Below are positions 3,341-39,848 of a stretch of 40,587 bases of DNA, one piece after another. The stretch covers positions 1 to 40,587 of IMG/VR virus record IMGVR_UViG_3300020119_000106. The stretch is one strand, 5' to 3'. The position numbers were made by a program, and so were the translations under genes. Each line of letters opens with the position of its first letter. Positions within the stretch are counted from its first letter, which is position 1. Source of the DNA: a virus. The notes beneath the pieces are model-generated. The model made no database searches, was not told where the DNA came from, and saw only the letters and a list, made by a program, of their open reading frames with translations.

Positions 3341-3428
3341 ACTCTGACTCCTCCTCGAGCGACCAACCCATGCGGAACTCGAACTGCTTCAGCGTCTCGC
3401 CTTCCGGCGCTGTCCCGTAATCGCTCAT
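3330..3428 (-). CDS. Tiny hypothetical protein (32 aa)
   Basis: ATG 3428 overlaps the stop of the DnaA-domain gene (ATGA) and its end overlaps the start of the O-like gene by 11 nt. The product is acidic with aromatic residues (EGETLKQFEFRMGW). Its final codons (EEESEYGF) contain the GAGGAGG ribosome site of the O-like gene, so translating this short frame may couple DnaA-domain and O-like synthesis. It may be a leader frame rather than a functional protein. Confidence 0.5.
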   Translation of the reverse strand: MSDYGTAPEGETLKQFEFRMGWSLEEESEYGF

Positions 3429-3775
3429 TGCCTCGTGACCTCCTCTTCAGCCCCAAACCGCTCGAGCAGCTCCGCCGTCGTGACTGCGAACCACTGGTCC
3501 TTCCGGCGCTGCCGCTCAGCCGAGTCAGCCAAGGACATGACGGTCGTGTGGTGGCGCGCGCCGAGCACGACGCCGACTTCGGGGAAGCTCAGCCGAGTGC
3601 AGCGGCGCGCCAGCAGACAGACCAGCATCCGCGCTTCGGCGATTGACTTGGTGCGTTGCCGACCAATGATATCGGCAGGCTCGATGGCGAATACGGCGGC
3701 AACAGCACTGATGATTTCGGACAGCGCGTTCGGACGCGGCAGTGTCTGGATGAGCGGATGTGAAAGCTCAGACAT
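3425..3775 (-). CDS. Stand-alone DnaA domain IV protein
   Basis: A 116-residue protein matching only the C-terminal DNA-binding domain of DnaA. The signature helix-turn-helix is clear: DIIGRQRTKSIAEARMLVC, then LSFPEVGVVLGARHHTTVM (about residues 36-80). There is no AAA+ ATPase part. In host DnaA this domain reads the 9-mer box TTATCCACA. Placed immediately before the O-like gene and its iterons, it probably helps, or competes with, host DnaA at an origin. ATG 3775 gives an 8-nt overlap with the upstream gene; a GTG at 3790 is a weaker choice. Confidence 0.85.
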   Translation of the reverse strand: MSELSHPLIQTLPRPNALSEIISAVAAVFAIEPADIIGRQRTKSIAEARMLVCLLARRCTRLSFPEVGVVLGARHHTTVMSLADSAERQRRKDQWFAVTTAELLERFGAEEEVTRQ

Positions 3776-4361
3776 GGGATGACCTCGCAAGGGAGACGAG
3801 CCAATCGGCGAAAGCAGGCGGAGTGAGAGACGCCTCGCGCTTGCTCAGGGTCGGTTTGATGCGATCGAACCAGCCGCACTGGTGCGTGCCGGAAGCGCGC
3901 CTCCAGTTCGGCTCAGTCGGCAGAGTCGAGCCGCTGTAGAAAAGCCAGGTACGCTTGCGCGCCTTGTGCCCATAGGCGCTCTGCCAAACCTCGCAGGCCC
4001 AGCCGTCGCCGCACGCATACCAGCCTGGCTTCTTGGCAGGCGGAGGCGGGAGAGCGAACTTCTTCCAGGCGTGGCTGCCTGCTGGGTGCTCAAGCACCCC
4101 CCCGAATCGGAGGACGCAATCAAGCGCGGCCGCGAAGCAGCCCATGTCATTGCCAGGCCGGTTGTGGGCGCCCCCGTAGCGCTTGTAGTTCAGCGCCGCG
4201 AAGTTGACCCAGAGCTGACAAGGCGGGTGCGCGACGACCGGATGAGGACCGTCGTACAAGCGCGCATCCCGCTTCTCGTCCCAGCAGTCGACGCCCGGCA
4301 TTGACGGATAGGGCCCCTCTGGGTCGACGTAGAGGGCGGCTACCGTTCGAAGCTCAGACAT
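3768..4361 (-). CDS. PPC-motif protein, cytosine methyltransferase-like
   Basis: A 197-residue phage protein with VVAHPPCQLW (Pro46-Pro47-Cys48), which resembles the PPC catalytic loop of DNA cytosine-5 methyltransferases. The region CVLRFGGVLEHPAGS is also like the later part of that fold. However, the FxGxG cofactor site expected near the N-terminus is absent (the start reads TVAALYVDPEGPYPSM) and the length is about half of a usual enzyme. It may be a degenerate or minimal relative, or an unrelated family using PPC. ATG 4361 overlaps the upstream stop (TGATG). Confidence 0.5.
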   Translation of the reverse strand: MSELRTVAALYVDPEGPYPSMPGVDCWDEKRDARLYDGPHPVVAHPPCQLWVNFAALNYKRYGGAHNRPGNDMGCFAAALDCVLRFGGVLEHPAGSHAWKKFALPPPPAKKPGWYACGDGWACEVWQSAYGHKARKRTWLFYSGSTLPTEPNWRRASGTHQCGWFDRIKPTLSKREASLTPPAFADWLVSLARSSHV

Positions 4362-4603
4362 CAGCGGAGCTCCTTCAGGATTCGGGACCGACGCAGTTTC
4401 TTGAGGGCGCTCGCCTCGAGCTGAAGCACGCGCTGCCGGCTCACCCCGAGCGCAGCCGCCACCTCCTCGACCGTGCGGACAGCTCCGCGCGCAGGCTGGC
4501 GACCCTCGCCGTCATGGTTTCGGGTCCGTTGTGGCTGTGTGGCGCCAATGTGGTCGCGTGTCGGATGTCCAGTATTTTTGGGTAAATAAAAAGGGGCGGT
4601 CAC
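4361..4603 (-). CDS. Sigma-70 region 4-like regulator
   Basis: An 80-residue protein starting at GTG 4603 in a GTGA overlap with the gene upstream. Residues about 44-75 read TVEEVAAALGVSRQRVLQLE and then ALKKLRR, closely matching the sigma-70 region 4 helix-turn-helix that contacts the -35 element. The N-terminal 40 residues are basic and without a clear fold, and region 2 is missing. Such a protein could redirect host RNA polymerase, for example to late genes, for which no other activator is recognisable here. The role is inferred; the domain match is strong. Confidence 0.75.
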   Translation of the reverse strand: MTAPFYLPKNTGHPTRDHIGATQPQRTRNHDGEGRQPARGAVRTVEEVAAALGVSRQRVLQLEASALKKLRRSRILKELR

Positions 4604-4905
4604 TTGGGCGCCGCCTCTCCGCTGGAGGGCGGGAATGCAATCGCGCTCAGCCGCGAGTAATCCCTTAGCGCACGCGTGATTTCGTCGTGCTTCGCTAGCC
4701 ACGCCTCACGACCAGCGTTCGTCTTGGTGTCGATGCTGTCGGCCTCCAGCTCGAGCCGCTTTCGCTTGTCGCTATTCTCTTGCAGCAAGCGCCTCGCGGC
4801 TTCGATTTCAGCCGCCGTGCGAATCAGACCCCAAGCCTTTTTGCCATCCGTGAAGTGGCGATTGAGCGCCGCCTCGTAGTCGCAGTCCTGGATCGCGATC
4901 TTCAA
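4600..4905 (-). CDS. Coiled-coil hypothetical protein (101 aa)
   Basis: First gene after the attP gap. The start ATG at 4905 opens MKIAIQDCDYEAALNRHF. The protein is almost wholly helical and charged, with a likely coiled coil at residues 33-85 (AAEIEAARRLLQENSDKRKR and RALRDYSRL). It ends in GTGA overlap with the sigma-like gene. No family recognised. Confidence 0.6.
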   Translation of the reverse strand: MKIAIQDCDYEAALNRHFTDGKKAWGLIRTAAEIEAARRLLQENSDKRKRLELEADSIDTKTNAGREAWLAKHDEITRALRDYSRLSAIAFPPSSGEAAPK

Positions 4906-4964
4906 GACAGCACCCCCGCAGCTTTCGCGGTCGACAAACCCCGCAAATCCGCGTTTGCGATTCT

Positions 4965-5207
4965 ACTGGTTAAAGGTCGGTCAAAGTAGGAGTCACACCC
5001 GCCGTTTCGAGTAACGAATCCAGCATGATTCCTGCCGCTTCGTTGTCGATTGGTATCCTGGATTGAAAATCCACGTGTCGTCAGTTCAATTCTGACCCTG
5101 GACACCACGATTCGGCCTGTTTTAAGGGGATTCGGTGACGAGGCGTCGTCCAGGCGTTCCACGCAATCGCCTCCCGTAGCTCCCGAATGGTTCAAAACTG
5201 GTAAAAG
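4965..5207. repeat. Candidate integrase arm-type sites
   Basis: Two 11-mers, ACTGGTTAAAG at 4965-4975 and ACTGGTAAAAG at 5197-5207, differ at one base and flank the tRNA-like core on both sides in the same orientation. A GGTCAAAG variant follows the first copy. Arm sites placed like this are typical of attP regions for lambda-type integrases. The whole 4906-5215 stretch is non-coding apart from these elements and the core. Confidence 0.4.
5058..5107 (+). other. Probable attP core: 3' half of a tRNA-Phe
   Basis: The sequence folds as the 3' half of a tRNA on the plus strand. The anticodon loop is TTGAAAA (GAA at 5065-5067, Phe) on a stem of 5058-5062 with 5070-5074. The variable loop is 5075-5079. 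The T arm pairs GTCAG with CTGAC around TTCAATT (5080-5096). The acceptor strand CCTGGAC (5097-5103) is followed by A and CCA. No D arm or 5' acceptor strand matches upstream, so this is not a whole tRNA. It lies 110 bp past the integrase stop, where attP is expected; insertion would rebuild the 3' end of a host tRNA-Phe gene. Confidence 0.8.
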
Positions 5208-5215
5208 TTTGGGGC

Positions 5216-6247
5216 TCATTGGGCCTCGGTTTTCACGGGCTTCTTCGGTGATCGCTTCGTCTTCTCGGGCTGCGACGTGCGTTCGCGCATCAGCTCCCCG
5301 AGTGCATCAAAGGGCAGCTGCCCGTAAACCAGTTCCACCATTCGTGCGTCGCGATGGCCGAGCATCTTTCCGATGAGATGCGGCTCGACGCCCATGGCTC
5401 GGAGGATGTTGCCGTGCGAGCGCCGGAGGTCGCGCGGTGACACGCGGGGCACCCCCGCCTTCTTGCAGGCGACGGTCATGTCCCGACGGACGTTGCCCCA
5501 GGGTTCGAAGGGGGCACCAGCGGCAGCAAGCTCAGCCATCCGAGCAAACGGCCTGAGGACCGGGATCGTACGCCATCGGTGACGGTTCTTGGAGCCGCGT
5601 ACCAGGATGGACGGTGCCTTGTCGGCGAGCTTGAAGTCGGCGCGCTCGGCCAGCCACACGCTCTTGAGGTCGGCGCCAGTGGCCACGATGAAGGCGCACA
5701 CCGCGGCGCGCTTGGGGCTCAGGGCGCGGATGAGTGACGCGGCCTGCTCCAAGGTAAGAGCACGGGTGCCGGGCGTGTACTTGATCTTGAAGTTGTGCGG
5801 CATCACCGCGTCGAGGCTGCGGTGGTACTTGCCCTGGCGAGCCGCCAGCCGGAGAGCGCCACGAAGGGTGGATAGCTCCTTGCCCTGCGTTGACAGCTCG
5901 GCGCCTTCCTGGTCCCGCTTCAGCAGGTAGCGGTCGACCGCCTTGGCGTCGATTTCGACCAGCAGCGTCTCGTCTCCGAGCACGCGCACCAGGTGGCCCA
6001 AGTGGAAGCCGTACATCTTCAGCGTTCCCTCGGCCTTTCGGCGCTGTCGCTGCTGGGCGACGAACTCCTGGAGGGCTTCTGTGAGCGTGGCTTCGTGCGC
6101 GGCTGCGTATGTCGGATCGGCTGCGCGCCGCTCGATGTTGGCGGCTGCGAGCTTCGCGACTTCCCGGTCCTTCGTTTTGAGCGAACGGCGCTTCCCTCGA
6201 AACTGGAAGTAGTAGGTGCCGTTTTCGTGTCGGTAGACTCGTGCCAT
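5216..6247 (-). CDS. int: Tyrosine-type site-specific integrase
   Basis: A 343-residue integrase starting at ATG 6247 (MARVYRHENGTYYF). Residues 1-40 look like an arm-binding domain, about 52-150 the core-binding (SAM-like) domain, and about 160-320 the catalytic domain. Catalytic residues seen are Lys220 (GSKNRHRWRTIPV), Arg275 (PRDLRRS), His298 (MLGHRD) and Tyr308 (ELVYGQL). Two positions are unusual: the TGxR box reads TGADLKSV, so the first catalytic Arg is not where expected, and the HxxR box reads RDLR. It acts at the nearby tRNA-Phe-like attP. The gene lies partly inside the excisionase-like frame. Confidence 0.9.
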   Translation of the reverse strand: MARVYRHENGTYYFQFRGKRRSLKTKDREVAKLAAANIERRAADPTYAAAHEATLTEALQEFVAQQRQRRKAEGTLKMYGFHLGHLVRVLGDETLLVEIDAKAVDRYLLKRDQEGAELSTQGKELSTLRGALRLAARQGKYHRSLDAVMPHNFKIKYTPGTRALTLEQAASLIRALSPKRAAVCAFIVATGADLKSVWLAERADFKLADKAPSILVRGSKNRHRWRTIPVLRPFARMAELAAAGAPFEPWGNVRRDMTVACKKAGVPRVSPRDLRRSHGNILRAMGVEPHLIGKMLGHRDARMVELVYGQLPFDALGELMRERTSQPEKTKRSPKKPVKTEAQ

Positions 6248-6399
6248 GGTTGAATCGTGTGGGCTGCGCGCCACTTCTCGAAGTTGCTGCGGGTGACTCG
6301 AACGGTGTTGCCGTGAACAATCCGCGGCATCTCACGCATGACCTCGTAAGCCTTGGACAGGCTGTAGTTCATCGCGTCGGCGATATCCTCGGCGAGCAT
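6019..6399 (-). CDS. Excisionase-like HTH protein overlapping int
   Basis: ATG 6399 opens a compact MerR/excisionase-type winged helix: LAEDIADAMNYSLSKAYEVM, then VHGNTVRVTRSNFEKWRAAH. The HTH part ends near residue 50, close to the integrase start, but the frame stays open for about 76 more codons and overlaps int by 229 nt. That tail is low-complexity Ser/Arg/Pro, as expected of an out-of-frame reading of int, so the functional protein may be mainly the first 55 residues. The role in excision or int control is inferred from position and fold. Confidence 0.65.
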   Translation of the reverse strand: MLAEDIADAMNYSLSKAYEVMREMPRIVHGNTVRVTRSNFEKWRAAHTIQPWHESTDTKTAPTTSSFEGSAVRSKRRTGKSRSSQPPTSSGAQPIRHTQPRTKPRSQKPSRSSSPSSDSAERPRER

Positions 6400-6416
6400 G
6401 GTCTCGCTAGGCTTGG

Positions 6417-6974
6417 TCAGGCGGCCCCCTTGCTCTGATCGCTGGCGATGAGCACGGTGCGTGGAGCCATGTCTTCGCCCGTTACCAGCCACTCAACCGA
6501 ACAGCCGAGCGCGCGAGCGATGCGCACTGCGCTATCAGCCGTCAGCCCGACTCGCTCTGATGATTCGATTCGTGAAAGCGCGGGCTGCAAGATGCCCGCC
6601 GCGCGAGCCAGCGCATTCTGCGACAGCTTCAGCGCCTTCCTTCGCGCAACGCATCTCTCGCCGAAGCCAGAAAACTGCTCGCTTGGCCCACGCCGAACGC
6701 GCTCGGCAAAGGGAATGGTGCTGTTCAGCAATTGGCCTGCGCCATGAAGATTGGCAATCCACCGCTGCTCAGCGAGAAGCGCGGATGTCTCATCCGGAAA
6801 GGAGCCAAGGATTCGCAGCTCAGGTGCGCCAATGGCAGCGATCCAGTCCCGCACTGCCGGTGCGCCGGACCGAGAAGCGTGCGACGTGAGGCGCCTTGCC
6901 GGGTTCGAGCTCTTGCCGACGTAGCGAATCACGTCGCTGCCTGGAGCGAGCAGCGCGTAAACGTAGACGGTCAT
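6417..6974 (-). CDS. GIY-YIG nuclease fused to an XRE-type HTH
   Basis: A 185-residue protein with two domains. Residues 1-90 match the GIY-YIG nuclease: YVYALL in place of GIYYI, RYVGKSSNPARRLTSH with the conserved Arg, the metal-binding Glu in LLAEQRWIANL, and the late Asn in LLNST. Residues about 98-170 are a Cro/CI-type helix-turn-helix: RRKALKLSQNALARAAGI, then LQPALSRIESSERVG and ARALGCSVEWLVTGE. The fusion suggests a nuclease aimed by, or regulated through, operator-type DNA. ATG 6974 overlaps the gene upstream (ATGA). Early left-operon placement implies expression when the repressor is off. Function beyond the domains is not known to me. Confidence 0.8.
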   Translation of the reverse strand: MTVYVYALLAPGSDVIRYVGKSSNPARRLTSHASRSGAPAVRDWIAAIGAPELRILGSFPDETSALLAEQRWIANLHGAGQLLNSTIPFAERVRRGPSEQFSGFGERCVARRKALKLSQNALARAAGILQPALSRIESSERVGLTADSAVRIARALGCSVEWLVTGEDMAPRTVLIASDQSKGAA

Positions 6975-7282
6975 CGGCGCGACCCTTTCTTGAGGAGATA
7001 CGCAACGGAGTCGTGCTCGTGAACGCAGAGCTGCCGCCGGAACTCGTCACTCAGCTGGGGACACGCGAGCACGCGCTCAACCGAGATCGCGTGTATGCAG
7101 TTGACCCACCCGAACAGAGCTCGCTCCGAAATGCCGAGCCATTTCGCGGCACGTGCGTTAGTCGCGCCCTGAACGGAGATCGCGCGCAAAAGCGCAACGG
7201 CAATAAGTTGCCGATGTTTCGACACGCGAGCGTCACGTACACTGGCCGAGTGTGGCGCTTTTGGGCTACGTTTCGTGGTCAT
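6971..7282 (-). CDS. HTH-containing regulatory protein (103 aa)
   Basis: ATG 7282 (MTTKRSPKAPHSAS) is preferred over an upstream in-frame start that would lie deep in the neighbour. After a basic N-terminus, residues about 42-62 form a probable helix-turn-helix (NARAAKWLGISERALFGWVN). The C-terminus is helical. It overlaps the upstream Cro-like gene by 17 nt and the GIY-YIG gene by 4 nt, making it the second of three DNA-binding proteins at the start of the left operon. It may be a CII- or Cro-like regulator; target unknown. Confidence 0.6.
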   Translation of the reverse strand: MTTKRSPKAPHSASVRDARVSKHRQLIAVALLRAISVQGATNARAAKWLGISERALFGWVNCIHAISVERVLACPQLSDEFRRQLCVHEHDSVAYLLKKGSRR

Positions 7283-7562
7283 GTCCGACCCCCGCAAAAG
7301 GCTGAACCGCAACGGCGTCGTCCTTTTTCCGATGATCGGCGTGCGGCCCCCAGGAGTCGGGGGGTACCTTTCCGCCAGTCCAAGTGGCAATGTCGACTCG
7401 GACAGCGGGCGACGGAGCTGCCTGCCTGGTCAGCCAGTAGTACAAGGCGGTACGAGTGACGTTGAGCGCCTTGGCGCACTGCCCTCGCGTCACCTCGTGG
7501 TCCTTCAGAAAGTCGGACAGCAGGTCAGGCCCATCGCCGACCTCGGGTTGGATATCGTCCAT
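7266..7562 (-). CDS. Cro-like HTH regulator, first gene of left operon
   Basis: A 98-residue protein. Residues 14-60 contain a compact helix-turn-helix (FLKDHEVTRGQCAKALNVTR, then TALYYWLTRQAAPSP), like the Cro/YdaS group of small phage regulators. The tail is short and acidic, then His-rich. ATG 7562 lies only 9 nt after the proposed -10 of the left promoter, so its mRNA is probably nearly leaderless, and I see no ribosome site. It is transcribed away from the repressor, the place Cro occupies in lambdoid phages. Confidence 0.7.
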   Translation of the reverse strand: MDDIQPEVGDGPDLLSDFLKDHEVTRGQCAKALNVTRTALYYWLTRQAAPSPAVRVDIATWTGGKVPPDSWGPHADHRKKDDAVAVQPFAGVGHDHET

Positions 7563-7569
7563 TGTCGTG

Positions 7570-7599
7570 ACATGTTAATGAACCTGAACCGACCTGCAA
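7570..7599 (-). promoter_or_regulatory. Left early promoter with operator (PL/OL-like)
   Basis: On the minus strand: -35 TTGCAG (7599-7594), 16-bp spacer, -10 TAACAT (7577-7572). The 20-bp operator 7570-7589 overlaps the spacer and -10 and contains TGAACC twice in tandem. Its exact reverse complement lies at 8051-8070 in the facing promoter. Transcription should start 2-3 nt before the Cro-like start codon. Confidence 0.65.
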
Positions 7600-7616
7600 G
7601 CGAAATCGCCACTTCA

Positions 7617-7632
7617 GTTCATTCTGGTGAAC
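7617..7632. promoter_or_regulatory. Palindromic candidate operator before the repressor gene
   Basis: GTTCA-N6-TGAAC, a 16-bp palindrome sharing the TGAAC/GTTCA half-site with the two promoter operators. It lies 15 bp before the repressor ATG, next to a weak -10-like TATGCT (7635-7640), so it may serve autoregulation. Confidence 0.45.
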
Positions 7633-7646
7633 GATATGCTGATGGC

Positions 7647-8009
7647 ATGGCAGTCCCGGACGACGACCGGGGGGAAGCTCTCGCCTGGTACTTTCGCCTT
7701 CTAGTGCGACAGGAACTGGAGAAGGGCATGACACGCGCACAACTGTGCCAGCGCTTGGGGATCGAGAAGGGGCATCTCTCGCAGATCGAAAACGGCAAGC
7801 TCGGAATAGGGGTTCCGAAGCTCGTCCAATTCGCTTCCGCTTTCGGCGTGATGCCAGGGGAGCTGCTCGATCGCGCGCTCAGCTGGTGGGAGAAGTTCGG
7901 CCGCAAGGAACGAGCTCGAGTCCTTGCCGAGCGCGCCGAGAAGGCCGCCGCCAAGGCCAACGAGTCCGGCGAGCACCCCAGCCAAGCCCCCATCAAAGCC
8001 GCCCGCTGA
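7647..8009 (+). CDS. Prophage repressor, short XRE family (CI-like)
   Basis: A 120-residue protein with an XRE helix-turn-helix at residues about 10-70: LLVRQELEKGMTRAQLCQRL, GIEKGHLSQIENGKLGIG and LVQFASAFGVMPGELLD. A Lys/Ala-rich helical tail follows. There is no S24/LexA-type self-cleavage domain, so induction must work differently from lambda CI (partner, antirepressor or instability). ATG 7647 is chosen because it starts just before the HTH; in-frame ATGs at 7570 and 7576 would place coding sequence over the operator. The gene is flanked by mirror-image operators, which supports its role as the master repressor. Confidence 0.8.
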   Translation: MAVPDDDRGEALAWYFRLLVRQELEKGMTRAQLCQRLGIEKGHLSQIENGKLGIGVPKLVQFASAFGVMPGELLDRALSWWEKFGRKERARVLAERAEKAAAKANESGEHPSQAPIKAAR

Positions 8010-8040
8010 AAAGAATCGACAGCCCAAGTACGATTTCCCA

Positions 8041-8070
8041 TTGCATGGGAGTTCAGGTTCATTAACATGT
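8041..8070 (+). promoter_or_regulatory. Right early promoter with operator (PR/OR-like)
   Basis: -35 TTGCAT (8041-8046), 16-bp spacer, -10 TAACAT (8063-8068). The operator 8051-8070 is the exact reverse complement of 7570-7589, so both early promoters carry the same site in the same position relative to their -10. The first gene starts at 8080, 11 nt past the -10, implying a nearly leaderless mRNA. Confidence 0.65.
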
Positions 8071-8079
8071 ACCTCAGCC

Positions 8080-8259
8080 ATGCAAACCAGACTGACGATC
8101 GAAGTCATCGCCATTCGCGCGGTGCTCGAACTCCCCGAATCCCCCTCGCCCGAGGCCTCTGAGCGCGCGGACGAGTTCACTGCCGACATCATCCGGGCCT
8201 TCCGCCCGCTCGCCAAGTGCCCGGCGCTGCCGGCCCCTCGCAAGACGGGGACGCGATGA
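8080..8259 (+). CDS. Hypothetical protein, first gene of right operon (59 aa)
   Basis: ATG 8080 follows the right early promoter by 11 nt. The product has a short beta-like N-terminus (TRLTIEVIAIRAVLEL) and a helical middle, ending in a basic tail (APRKTGTR). No family recognised. As the first gene under repressor control it would be the earliest right-operon protein made. The next gene overlaps its stop (ATGA). Confidence 0.6.
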   Translation: MQTRLTIEVIAIRAVLELPESPSPEASERADEFTADIIRAFRPLAKCPALPAPRKTGTR

Positions 8260-8747
8260 GTCGCGCGGTGGCGCTACCGACGAGCCTCTCCAGCCTACTG
8301 GAGCTCGCCGTCAACGACGCAAAGAAGTGCGAGGCGCTCCCCGAGCGCTACCGGCTCAACATGGGGGAATGGGTCGTACGCCCGAAGAATCAACCCGAGG
8401 TGTGCGAAGTCTGCATGGCCGGCGCAGTCATGACCCAATCTCTCGGGTTCGAGGCGTCGATTGAGCGGCTCGACCCGGCAAAGGTCGGCTCTGACGCGGT
8501 GAAGAGCGCGATGTGGGCAATCGACTCAATGCGCACAGGCGAGTTTCGGTGCGCGCTGGACGACCTCGACCTCCGTCTCGATGAGACACCGGAGCAGCTC
8601 GCTGCGCTGATTCGATGCGAGAACCTCGTGGAGGCTGACCGCAGCGCAGACATTGATGATGAGGATGACGACGGTGAGCTCAAGGACCGCGCCGAGTGGT
8701 CCACATACCTGCAATGCGCCGCAATCCTACGCGAGGTCGGCCTGTGA
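8256..8747 (+). CDS. Hypothetical acidic protein (163 aa)
   Basis: ATG 8256 overlaps the previous stop. The N-terminal half contains a CEVCMAGAVM motif (Cys57, Cys60 by my count) within a segment common in phage proteins of unknown role. The middle is helical and the C-terminal third is strongly acidic (SADIDDEDDDGEL). The acidic run might mimic DNA or bind basic partners, but I see nothing that decides this. Function unknown. Confidence 0.6.
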   Translation: MSRAVALPTSLSSLLELAVNDAKKCEALPERYRLNMGEWVVRPKNQPEVCEVCMAGAVMTQSLGFEASIERLDPAKVGSDAVKSAMWAIDSMRTGEFRCALDDLDLRLDETPEQLAALIRCENLVEADRSADIDDEDDDGELKDRAEWSTYLQCAAILREVGL

Positions 8748-10096: not shown

Positions 10097-10266
10097 CCTG
10101 CTGCCAACATTCTCAGTACAGCTTCGTCTTGCTCAACGGCATCTACGCGCGCTGCCAGCGTTGCGGGCATGAGTTCATGGTCATACTCGGCGGCCCTGAC
10201 CGACGCGGGTACTGCGAGGCTGATGGCTTGCAGAACGATGTGCCTGGAGTGGAGGCGCGGCAATGA
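10093..10266 (+). CDS. Small zinc-ribbon protein (57 aa)
   Basis: GTG 10093 start in a GTGA overlap. Paired cysteines near the start (TCCQHSQ) and in the middle (CQRCGHEFM) form one probable zinc ribbon, with a further Cys near the C-terminus. Its stop overlaps the exonuclease-annealase start, so it may be translated together with it. Function unknown. Confidence 0.6.
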   Translation: MTCCQHSQYSFVLLNGIYARCQRCGHEFMVILGGPDRRGYCEADGLQNDVPGVEARQ

Positions 10267-11750
10267 ATGCGAAGCTGGAAACCAAACAGCAGGTCCTGCT
10301 CATCGACCTGGGCAGCCTGTTCTGGCCGGCGTGGTTCTCGTCGATCAAGGACGAGCTGAGCGCCGCTCACGATCGCTCGGTCAGCGTGGTCCGACGCATG
10401 CGCGAGACCTACCCGGGCGCGCTGGTCGCGGTGTGCTGTGACTCCCCGTCTAACTTTCGCAAAGAGCTGGAGCCGAGCTACAAGGCGAACCGCCCGCCGC
10501 GCGACTCCGCCGCTTTCGAGCAGTTGCGGCTGGTGAAGGAGACGCTCGCGAAAGACGGACTGCTCGTCTGGGAGGCGGACGGCTTCGAGGCGGACGACGT
10601 GCTTGCGACGGCTTGCCGAGCCGCCGTGAAAGCTGGTCATGAGGTGGTGGTCGCCAGCGCCGACAAGGACCTGACGCAGCTAGTCGAGCATGGCGTCTCC
10701 TGGGTGAGCCCCAAGACTGGCGAGCTGCTGACGCGCGACGGCGTGCGGGCGAAGTTCGGCGTGTGGCCCGAGCAGATGCGCGACTACCTCGCGATGTGCG
10801 GCGACTCCAGCGACAACGTGCGCGGTGTGCAAGGCGTCGGGCCGAAGGGAGCGGTCAAGCTACTCGAGGAATACGTCACCCTCGAACAGGTGATGGCGGA
10901 GGTCGTGAAGCCGCGCGCGAAGCCGGTGGCGACGCTGAACATTGACGCGAAGCTGAAGGAGTCGCTCGCGTGGATGGCGACGACGGTCAAGCTCGTGTCG
11001 CTCCGCTACGACGTGCCGATTAGCTGGGAAGAGATTTACGAGAAGCGCGAAGTGAAACCGCTCACCAAGGAAGCCGCTATGCCAGAGATGACTGATGCCG
11101 AATACGAGTCGGCCGAACGAGAGATGATTGCCGATGGGCACGCGACCGACGCCGCCGTCGCCGATGCTGAGCCTAAGGCGCAGCTGGTCCGGCGAGAGGC
11201 TGAGCCGGCGCGGAGCGTGGCTATGGCCGTCGTCGCGCCTCCCAGCTGGGAGCTCGCGCTGGAGCCAACGACGCTCAAGCTCGCCTATACGCTTGCGCAG
11301 GACCTGTTTAACTCGCGGCTCTACTCGCGCTTTCCGTCTGCCGAAGCCATCTTCGCAGTCATCATCCGCGGTCGAGAGATGGGGCTCGGCGCGCTGACCT
11401 CGCTCGACCTGTTCCACATCGTGGAGGGCAAGCCGGCGCCGCACGCGCACTTCATCATTGCTCGCGCGAAGGCCTCCCCTGAGTGCGAGTACCTGGAATA
11501 CATCGGCGGGGACTCGACCTATGCCGAGTGGGAAGGGCAGAGCAAGCGCGGTGCTGCGCTCGGGCGTCAGCCAGTGAAGCTCCGCTACACCATCGAGCAG
11601 GCGAGGAAAGCCAACGTCGTCAAGCAGGGCAGCAACTGGGAAAAGCGGCCCGACGAAATGTTGAGGAAGACTGCGGGCGTCCAGCTCGCTCGCGTGATCG
11701 CGCCTGGTGCGACAATGGGTCTCTATTCGCAAGAGGAGCTGGCAGGTTGA
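10263..11750 (+). CDS. FEN-type 5'-3' exonuclease fused to RecT-like annealase
   Basis: A 495-residue two-domain protein. Residues 10-265 are a full flap/5'-3' exonuclease as in Pol I and T5 D15: LLIDLGS (Asp15), CCDSPSNFRKELEPSYKANR (Asp60 and arch Lys/Arg), FEADD (109-112), ADKDL (Asp134, Asp136), GDSSDN (Asp181, Asp184), then the helix-hairpin-helix GVQGVGPKGAVKLL. All acidic metal ligands appear present. Residues 268-335 are an Ala/Glu-rich linker. Residues 336-495 match RecT/Bet-type single-strand annealing proteins: AVIIRGREMGLGALTSL, HIVEGKPAPHAHFI, RYTIEQARKANV and WEKRPDEMLRKTAGVQLARV, ending GLYSQEEL. The chain would resect 5' ends and anneal the exposed strand, work done by two proteins (Exo and Bet) in lambda. 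Confidence 0.85.
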   Translation: MNAKLETKQQVLLIDLGSLFWPAWFSSIKDELSAAHDRSVSVVRRMRETYPGALVAVCCDSPSNFRKELEPSYKANRPPRDSAAFEQLRLVKETLAKDGLLVWEADGFEADDVLATACRAAVKAGHEVVVASADKDLTQLVEHGVSWVSPKTGELLTRDGVRAKFGVWPEQMRDYLAMCGDSSDNVRGVQGVGPKGAVKLLEEYVTLEQVMAEVVKPRAKPVATLNIDAKLKESLAWMATTVKLVSLRYDVPISWEEIYEKREVKPLTKEAAMPEMTDAEYESAEREMIADGHATDAAVADAEPKAQLVRREAEPARSVAMAVVAPPSWELALEPTTLKLAYTLAQDLFNSRLYSRFPSAEAIFAVIIRGREMGLGALTSLDLFHIVEGKPAPHAHFIIARAKASPECEYLEYIGGDSTYAEWEGQSKRGAALGRQPVKLRYTIEQARKANVVKQGSNWEKRPDEMLRKTAGVQLARVIAPGATMGLYSQEELAG

Positions 11751-38095: not shown

Positions 38096-38325
38096 TTCTT
38101 CGGCTGCTCTTTCACGGCGCACGGCTCGCTCACTAGCGCCCACGGAATCAGCACCACAGCCGGCTCATCGCGGTCGATGGCCACCGTGCAGTTGGGCAAG
38201 CGCGTGACCACCACGCCAAGCGCCTGCGCGTCGATGTCATAGCCCTTGCTAGCCTCGTACATCACCCGCGGTGGTTTCTCGAAATAGCGCACGGGGTTCG
38301 AGACAGATACCTTGTCGAGCTTCAT
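38092..38325 (-). CDS. Hypothetical protein (77 aa)
   Basis: ATG 38325 overlaps the TerL stop (ATGA). Likely a small beta-type protein (ALGVVVTRLPNCTVAIDRDE, then PAVVLIPWALV) with a Lys-rich end. No family recognised; part of the packaging-gene cluster. Confidence 0.55.
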   Translation of the reverse strand: MKLDKVSVSNPVRYFEKPPRVMYEASKGYDIDAQALGVVVTRLPNCTVAIDRDEPAVVLIPWALVSEPCAVKEQPKK

Positions 38326-39848
38326 CCGATCATCCTGTCGAGTGCGTTGTTGAATGGGCTGCGCCCGGTCTGCGCGAGCATCTCAATCGCGAGGCGCTCA
38401 TCGTCGGTCATGGTCGGCAATTCGTTCGCGACTGCCGCGCCCGGTAGCGCCTGCATGGCGAGCAGCAGCGCCGCCGCGTAGTCGCAATGGCGACCGTCAC
38501 CCGTCTTCGGAAACACAATCTGACTACCGCCTTGCTGCCGCGGTCGCTTCTTCAGCGCAATCAGGTCGGCGCGCATCTGCCGATTGGCAGGCAGCGAAAG
38601 CTGGCGCTTGCCGAACAGGGTCTCGAGGCGCTTGCCGTCGGCCGTGTCGTCGCGCGTCAACATCGTGAACAAGAGCCCCGTGTTCGCGAGCTCGGCGATG
38701 TTTTGCAGTAGGTCGAAACCCCACTGGTCGGTGTAGACCTCGAACAGCTCGTAAGGCAGCAGGTCCTCCGCCATCTCGGCGAGCACGTCAGAAGCCCGCA
38801 ACGGCGACTGCCGCGAGCCCACCCATTCGCGGGCGAGCACGACTTGCCACAGCTCCCCGGGAGCCATCGTGAGCACGAGCAGGGTCCAGCCGTTGCCGCG
38901 CGTTGCTGGGTCCATGACCGCCGCGTACTGCTGGCCGTACACGAACGGGATGTAGGCGTCGTTCGCGCGCTGGCAGGCGGCCACGTCGAGCGCGCTCAGC
39001 ATCGCGTCTTCGGGCTGAGCGAAGCGCGACATCACGTCGCACTCGTAGGTCATGTCGTTGTCTTGCCGGATGCGCTCGCAGTACTCAGGCGTGTACAGCG
39101 CTGGCCGGAGCTGCGGCCCCGAGGCGATCATCACCACGCAGTCCTCACCCGGCTTGCCGAAGCGGTCCTGCACTAGGTCGAACACCGGCCCCCGCGGCGC
39201 CCACAGTGAGCCGACGAGGAATATCTGTGCGCCGGGGCGCATGCGCGCTTGGATGGCGGTGAGCGCGTGCGAGAGGTTGATAACGCCGTCCTCCTCGCCA
39301 ATCATGCGCGGGGCCTCATCGAAGATGGCCGCGAGCAACCAGCGCGAAATCAGCGCCTGCCCTGCGCGGCTGCCGGCAGTGACCTTGATTTCAACCACCC
39401 ACCCCGAGCGGTTCCGAATGCGGATGCTGTCTGTCGTCGGCTTGCCCACGAGCAGCTTCGACAGGTGCGGGCTCTGCGTGACGGCACCCACGAGCTTGGA
39501 AAAGGTCTCGTTGGCTTGGTCGATGCGCACGCTCACGATGGGCACGCGCGGCACCTCGCCCGGCTTCAGCCCCGAGCAGTCACCGGTGTACGCGGCGACG
39601 AGACCAGCGGCAGCGACGATGGTCGACTTGGCGCAACGCACAGCAGCCCCGAGGCATACCTTGCGAGGCTTGGTTCGAGGCAGCGCGGCGAGCGCTTGCG
39701 GCCCGCCCACCATCTCGGCCACGACGGGATTGTTCGCGAGGTCGCCCAGCGGTTCGCCGCCGATGATTCGGCAGACGGCGCGCTGCGCATCCGAGGCGGT
39801 ATCGAGCCCGAACCCATCCTGATGCGTGAGCAGCGCCTCGAGGTTCAC
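38322..39848 (-). CDS. terL: Terminase large subunit
   Basis: A 508-residue packaging motor. ATPase domain: a variant Walker A GAAVRCAKST (67-76), Walker B LLAAIFDEAP (Asp177-Glu178) and a coupling motif near LVGSLW (211-216). Nuclease domain of RNase H type: Asp313 (VMDPATRGNG), Asp374 (VYTDQWG) and Asp456 (RHCDYAAALLLA). The Walker A is atypical because the usual GxGKS/T is replaced by RCAKST, a form seen in some terminases. GTG 39848 overlaps the TerS stop (GTGA). It drives DNA into the procapsid and cuts the concatemer; sequence alone does not say whether cos or headful. Confidence 0.9.
   Translation of the reverse strand: MNLEALLTHQDGFGLDTASDAQRAVCRIIGGEPLGDLANNPVVAEMVGGPQALAALPRTKPRKVCLGAAVRCAKSTIVAAAGLVAAYTGDCSGLKPGEVPRVPIVSVRIDQANETFSKLVGAVTQSPHLSKLLVGKPTTDSIRIRNRSGWVVEIKVTAGSRAGQALISRWLLAAIFDEAPRMIGEEDGVINLSHALTAIQARMRPGAQIFLVGSLWAPRGPVFDLVQDRFGKPGEDCVVMIASGPQLRPALYTPEYCERIRQDNDMTYECDVMSRFAQPEDAMLSALDVAACQRANDAYIPFVYGQQYAAVMDPATRGNGWTLLVLTMAPGELWQVVLAREWVGSRQSPLRASDVLAEMAEDLLPYELFEVYTDQWGFDLLQNIAELANTGLLFTMLTRDDTADGKRLETLFGKRQLSLPANRQMRADLIALKKRPRQQGGSQIVFPKTGDGRHCDYAAALLLAMQALPGAAVANELPTMTDDERLAIEMLAQTGRSPFNNALDRMIG

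Follow-up and report, generated by a model that had tools for sequence, protein, structure and literature searches.

A GIY-YIG nuclease domain fused to a CI/Cro-type HTH in the switch-like region of a phage: a possible operator-directed nuclease

Results

The fusion gene and its surroundings

The DNA analysed here, in the following called the window, is a complete IMG/VR record of 40,587 bases with a GC content of 64%. On its minus strand lies a gene (6417-6974) that starts with ATG and encodes a protein of 185 amino acids, which according to Pfam, structural models and a full-length homologue combines a GIY-YIG domain with a CI/Cro-type HTH. The GIY-YIG domain (residues 1-86, positions 6717-6974), delimited by Pfam, alignments and fold, carries residues Y6, Y18, R28, H32, E69 and N84 and is followed by a short linker (residues 87-103, 6666-6716) placed by alignment to the homologue. 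Pfam, a model and a PDB match define the adjoining P22-c2/CI-type HTH (residues 104-168, 6471-6665), and its recognition helix is predicted by the model and by helix comparison at residues 130-137 (6564-6587).

The start of the fusion gene overlaps by 4 nt with an HTH-like open reading frame (6971-7282, minus strand) that shows weak Pfam matches below the cut-off, and this in turn overlaps by 17 nt with a small HTH gene in Cro-like position (7266-7562, minus strand; PHROG transcriptional repressor, E 7.3e-5), the first gene of the integrase-side operon. Downstream of the fusion follows a tyrosine integrase (5216-6247, minus strand; phrog_1, E 1.4e-35). On the opposite strand, a divergent XRE regulator (7647-8009, plus strand; Pfam HTH_31, E 3.5e-8) is bracketed by an operator-like inverted repeat of 30 nt (left copy 7570-7599, right copy 8041-8070; 87% complementary), the 18-nt core of which is found twice in identical form, where none would be expected by chance. 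The palindrome GTTCA-N6-TGAAC (7617-7632) may be a third operator. This arrangement resembles a lysis-lysogeny switch whose integrase-side operon contains the fusion. An earlier note on this DNA had placed the gene in an immediate early operon, between regulators and integrase. Its position between the two HTH genes and the integrase is borne out, whereas the immediate early timing can at present only be inferred, the scan of 4800-8400 for sigma-70-like or consensus promoters having returned no promoter-like site; terminator-like sites in the same interval number two as compared to 2.6 expected. The neighbours of the fusion that were scanned are HTH genes and the integrase, with no methyltransferase gene among them as would be expected beside a type II restriction enzyme with a GIY-YIG fold. 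A further open reading frame (6022-6492, minus strand) is HTH-like and by eye resembles an excisionase; it overlaps the start of the integrase by more than 200 nt in another frame and matches no Pfam family at E 0.01.

The N-terminal half resembles the catalytic domain of I-TevI

Residues 4-74 match the GIY-YIG family PF01541 with 32.4 bits as compared to a cut-off of 22.6 (E 1.2e-7). In alignments with nine and then thirteen viral relatives the fusion shows Y6, Y18, G20, R28, H32, W44, E69 and N84, all of them residues that are invariant or nearly so among viral GIY-YIG proteins, and the active-site set of two tyrosines, arginine, glutamate and asparagine is complete (Y6, Y18, R28, E69 and N84). 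The GIY-YIG core with its Arg, Glu and Asn in place, as described in the earlier note, is therefore confirmed. We take these five residues to be the equivalents of the catalytic residues of I-TevI; E75 of the latter is named in the title of the matching PDB entry. In a full-length AlphaFold2 model computed from fourteen sequences, residues 1-80 reach block pLDDT values of 90-98 and the remainder values of 43-79, the model being poor past residue 90. The best PDB match is the catalytic domain of I-TevI (1ln0), with a Foldseek probability of 1.00 but an E-value of only 0.047, followed by the N-domains of UvrC, and VIA-align superimposes 84 residues on the I-TevI domain at 2.5 Å with a Z-score of 9.4. 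Structure prediction, which had been suggested as a check, thus upholds the GIY-YIG fold. Taken together, sequence and model indicate that the N-terminus of the fusion is an intact I-TevI-type GIY-YIG domain, for which endonuclease activity is predicted. None of the eight Pfam families that match the protein at E≤1 is a NUMOD, an AP2 or the DNA-binding module of I-TevI.

The C-terminal half resembles the DNA-binding domain of P22 c2

The second claim of the earlier note, a standard XRE domain in the C-terminal half, proved equally sound. Residues 111-163 match HTH_3 (PF01381) with 43.5 bits as compared to a cut-off of 23 (E 3.3e-11), and searches of PHROGs and of PDB sequences catch the HTH half only, the former with phage transcriptional regulators and the latter with the P22 c2 repressor (E 1.8e-6). 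Folded alone from two sequences, this half forms five helices with a mean pLDDT of 75.1 in the top model; of the five computed, two stay below 50. The model matches the DNA-binding domains of P22 c2 in entries 1adr (E 9e-4) and 3jxb (TMq 0.70, 1.4 Å, 38% identity). By sequence and model, then, the C-terminus is a P22-c2/CI-type HTH of lambda-repressor-like fold, predicted to bind operators. Different from P22 c2, 434 and other CI-type repressors however, the fusion lacks the repressor peptidase half and instead contains an N-terminal nuclease domain. In the 434 repressor, positions 28, 29 and 33 contact bases. The recognition-helix region reads LQPALSRIE in the fusion, EKGHLSQIE in the XRE regulator of the window and SQPAIAKVE in the repressor of phage Magia.

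A second fusion occupies the same switch position in a different phage

A search for the same domain order in other phages, likewise suggested beforehand, was successful. A scan of viral_contigs built on repressor-like HTHs yielded one full-length relative, 48% identical across residues 1-170 (E 6e-40). It is encoded at 1501-2034 of locus L125, which together with L141 and L142 belongs to a single phage record, of which 16.8 kb were compared, and it passes both Pfam cut-offs (GIY-YIG, E 4.9e-9; HTH_3, E 1.9e-10). Since a full-length homologue exists in another phage record, we can exclude that the fusion is a chance open reading frame or an assembly chimera.

Conservation can be read from this one pair, the two verified members: each of the eight GIY-YIG signature residues examined is identical at an overall identity of 48-49%, with 44 of 83 residues identical in the GIY-YIG part, 3 of 17 in the linker and 35 of 65 in the HTH. 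Within the latter, identity amounts to 3 of 8 residues in the recognition helix as compared to 16 of 19 in residues 150-168, which in sequence terms shows a recognition helix diverging on a conserved scaffold. That only two members were verified in the collections searched would suit a decayed or accidental fusion without function; an open frame, a protein conserved at 48% and the conservation of both active site and position make this highly improbable.

In the second phage, a Cro-like gene (L125:1259-1504) overlaps the fusion by 4 nt, a divergent XRE gene (748-1215) faces the fusion side, and the far end of the fusion operon is formed by a Phage_integrase gene (L141:3507-4796). The fusion therefore holds the same switch position in both phages, behind a small HTH gene, in the integrase-side operon and divergent from an XRE gene. 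The L141 neighbours, as far as the genes were scanned, are again HTH genes and the integrase, with no methyltransferase. The integrase of the window finds no match in this record at E≤0.01, and of the called genes of the window plus two added open reading frames just two, the fusion and gene 4600-4905, have a protein match there. At the DNA level, positions 4661-4904 of the window share 86% identity with L141 across 244 nt, which indicates that the two phages, different as they are, draw on one gene pool. Gene 4600-4905 (minus strand), of unassigned function, resembles the start of L141 at this 86% DNA identity, the remaining L141 stretch compared being unlike it.

Relatives of the nuclease half are homing-type

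Two profile scans of viral_contigs for the nuclease half gave 24 and 80 loci, the latter being the best 80 of 130 confirmed; with four loci shared they comprise 100 loci and, after removal of 21 duplicate open reading frames, 79 distinct proteins. Among these, Pfam finds GIY-YIG in 76, NUMOD3 in 28, NUMOD1 in 17, AP2 in three and HTH_3 in one (L043, E 0.004), the last lying under the cut-off and beside a resolvase-like HTH, so that none of the 79 relatives kept has a clear CI/Cro-type HTH. The NUMOD counts place the GIY-YIG half, on sequence grounds, in a branch of phage homing-type nucleases with various DNA-reading tails, in which a CI/Cro-type head is unusual.

This grouping bears on what we regard as the main rival explanation, namely that the fusion is a free-standing homing endonuclease of the immunity region: in related phages without the gene it would cut the control region, and repair would then copy in the gene together with the flanking immunity genes. 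Occupation of one switch position next to non-matching integrases would fit such transfer of a module, and PMC10448857 describes nuclease genes at the boundaries of genetic exchange. However, the protein of the window is without a NUMOD or I-TevI DNA-binding domain, and since the fusion overlaps its upstream neighbour by 4 nt in both phages, it looks like an integrated part of the operon. No gene-less allele of the fusion locus was found; a near relative record of 23.8 kb (G001) lacks any match to three proteins of the window, namely the fusion, the integrase and the exonuclease-RecT protein described below, and says nothing on the locus. On balance we consider homing of the immunity module unlikely; it could coexist with an operator-directed nuclease.

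How widespread is the fusion itself? With the fusion of the window as query, 223 records of the phages collection and 99 of the plasmids collection were matched, none covering 80% of the query, and the same holds for the 317 phage records matched by its homologue. Two narrow pattern scans of genome_contigs gave no match and one distant GIY-YIG match, respectively, and no full-length relative, while 198 genomes from the phylum of an uncultured Hymenobacter (G002, the source of locus L037) gave one HTH-only match and no fusion. Nor did a scan of viral_contigs with both fusions as query return a third member, so that the scans of this collection overall contain one full-length relative (L125, identical with L142). 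The best viral structure match in BFVD, over 158 columns, is a protein of 190 amino acids from an uncultured Caudovirales phage (A0A6J5KZ42, "HTH_XRE domain containing protein"), which by name and structure match is possibly a third fusion.

Several candidates were discarded. The long match in L025 (query residues 3-148) passes through a stop into low-complexity sequence; L074, L076, L078 and L094, with matches to residues 140-166, reveal no clear CI/Cro-type HTH on Pfam scan; and by eye the HTH-only loci L126, L128, L136, L138, L143-L145 and L147-L151 have no GIY-YIG domain (L127, L129-L135, L137, L139 and L140 were left out of this reading), L146 has a GIY-YIG domain without a CI/Cro-type HTH, and a protein of phage phiS, which had been aligned, is not GIY-YIG and was dropped. 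The nearest stand-alone GIY-YIG relative (L013:2983-3483, 45% identity) ends in what looks by eye like a ribbon-helix-helix, with no supporting Pfam match.

The fused HTH resembles foreign repressors

Whose operator would the fused HTH read? Compared by Smith-Waterman z-scores, it is far from the regulators of its own phage (XRE 3.7, Cro-like protein 0.8, product of 6971-7282 -0.1) and close to the repressors of Magia (19.8), Meifeng (17.3), PfDIW6 (20.0), mEp235 (18.3), Aval (15.8) and the L125 phage (13.1), a contrast that is biased in that five of these six foreign repressors were picked as best database hits; the L125 repressor was not so picked. Two other small HTH proteins of the L125 phage score 1.9 and -1.4. 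For the HTH of the L125 homologue (8.7 with its own repressor, 6.0 with the XRE of the window and 10.4-23.7 with the five) the contrast between own and foreign is weaker. No copy of the operator deduced for the Magia repressor, read by eye as ATAACCAAAGTTAT, occurs in the window even when three mismatches are allowed; this is compatible with a foreign target, although it is no proof of one.

The target ideas of the earlier note, in which the operator-like sites are those of the phage itself, of a competing prophage or of the host, can at most be ranked. Because the fused HTH is so distant from the XRE, Cro-like and HTH genes of its own phage and its recognition helix differs from that of the XRE, the switch operators of that phage are the least likely target. 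The palindromes of the switch rather look like sites for the XRE regulator. This also speaks against a nuclease in the service of integration, excision or early replication that would let the HTH choose the site and then cut or nick the DNA of the phage itself: although the gene sits in the integrase operon of both phages, the integrases differ, so that a shared att-linked function is not evident, and the XRE to which the palindromes seem to belong has a different recognition helix. We regard such a role as improbable.

A purely regulatory role, also raised in the earlier note, has more in its favour. The HTH would repress the integrase operon or the switch, with cleavage rare or absent; the gene sits among regulators in both phages, the HTH is of repressor type, and I-TevI is a documented autorepressor (PMC2988022). 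But why would a regulator retain an active site? A fold used for dimerisation only would not need the eight signature residues, all of which are kept at 48% identity, and the fused HTH is unlike the regulators of its own phage. Since all catalytic-site residues are retained in so distant a homologue, the comparison disfavours a regulator with a mere nuclease fold, and we consider this explanation unlikely.

Discussion

Our tentative reading, somewhat better supported than any of the alternatives, is that the fusion is an operator-directed nuclease of a temperate phage, which may most likely be aimed at the control region of a second temperate phage, or of a prophage, sharing its host. An intact nuclease retained over deep divergence, a repressor-type reader with a variable helix and a place in the switch operon of different phages together suggest a nuclease that is steered to operator-like sites. 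That these would not be the operators of the phage itself is suggested by the cost of cutting them and by a reader unlike the phage's own regulators. The operator of a rival phage is favoured instead, because the fused HTH resembles the repressors of foreign phages and because a precedent exists in the nuclease Odn, which shows that such a weapon exists (PMC8263062).

We envisage that the nuclease is made from the integrase-side operon of the temperate phage. The repressor-type HTH, presumably dimeric as are the P22 c2 proteins to which it is related, would read an operator-like palindrome, and the I-TevI-type domain, held on a tether of about 17 residues, would cut beside it. Expression during infection or induction could then damage a competing phage or prophage. 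Binding without cutting near its own promoter might in addition allow self-repression, as with I-TevI. For the fusion, binding to DNA, cutting, choice of target and timing are all inferred.

Odn (Gp88) of the Vibrio phage ICP1 is described in PMC8263062 as a nuclease of the GIY-YIG superfamily with a captured RepA-like reader that cuts the origins of satellites; on our reading the fusion would be its counterpart for the immunity region. Homologous nucleases of E. coli phages combine T5orf172 with RepA_N, and their RepA_N domains vary along with those of the satellites (PMC10448857). Like the fusion, these are phage nucleases of the GIY-YIG superfamily whose attached DNA-reading domain is similar to a control protein from other mobile elements. 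They differ in that T5orf172 and a RepA_N-like domain, neither of which was found in the fusion, are directed at satellite origins, whereas the fusion joins PF01541 to a CI/Cro-type HTH (HTH_3) in an immunity region; its mode of action may nevertheless be similar. Phages of Gordonia and Mycobacterium have a small GIY-YIG gene immediately in front of a RepA-like or replication initiation gene, with an overlap of 1 nt (L006:959-2133, L007:869-2111, L010:875-2117), gene pairs recalling the nuclease-RepA pairing of Odn.

I-TevI of phage T4, which can repress itself without cutting (PMC2988022), shares with the fusion the GIY-YIG fold and residues (1ln0) and a C-terminal DNA-binding domain that contains an HTH. 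It is however intron-encoded and has a linker of 75 residues and a zinc finger, as opposed to about 17 residues, a repressor-type HTH and a place in a switch operon. The NUMOD-bearing phage nucleases belong to the same GIY-YIG branch as the fusion, but differ from it in that the clear CI/Cro-type HTH is missing among the relatives kept. As a regulator-like fusion, PMC1564403 mentions a LuxR-type module at the N-terminus, and in PMC10688885 XRE and GIY-YIG are separate genes. In the literature as judged on titles and the beginnings of abstracts, we found no description of a fusion of GIY-YIG with a CI/Cro-type HTH. The components are thus known and precedents exist for the principle, whereas the literature so judged yielded neither the combination nor its constant location in the switch.

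More speculatively than for this one protein, temperate phages may carry repressor-guided nucleases in their immunity regions, with a fast-changing recognition helix on a fixed scaffold that lets them cut the operators of heteroimmune rivals and perhaps replace the immunity module of these with their own. If so, phage immunity would have a third layer in addition to repression and exclusion, and Odn an equivalent in the contest of prophage against prophage. Should the fusion indeed cut at repressor sites, the immunity operator, the oldest known specificity system of phages, would become a target against rivals, and the specificity could be read from repressor sequences. If on the other hand it were only an autoregulated homing nuclease, it would still be a compact cutter of 185 residues with a well-understood class of DNA reader. 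The fusion also supports the view that GIY-YIG nucleases freely trade DNA-reading heads.

Other genes of the window

Catalogued kin of the virion genes of the window are nearly absent. For a large gene near the end of the record (38322-39848, minus strand), the only counterpart lies in one phage record (Virus Rctr16k, terminase-like, E 3e-11); neither PHROGs nor Pfam gave a family for it at the limits applied. The open reading frame 3425-3790 (minus strand) encodes 121 amino acids that consist mostly of the C-terminal DNA-binding domain of DnaA (Bac_DnaA_C, E 3.9e-18). Finally, open reading frame 10263-11750 (plus strand) combines a complete PolA-type 5'-3' exonuclease (5_3_exonuc_N, E 5e-28; 5_3_exonuc, E 5e-21) with the C-terminal portion of a RecT annealing protein (E 1e-8), and its sequence identifies the predicted product as a one-chain exonuclease-annealase.
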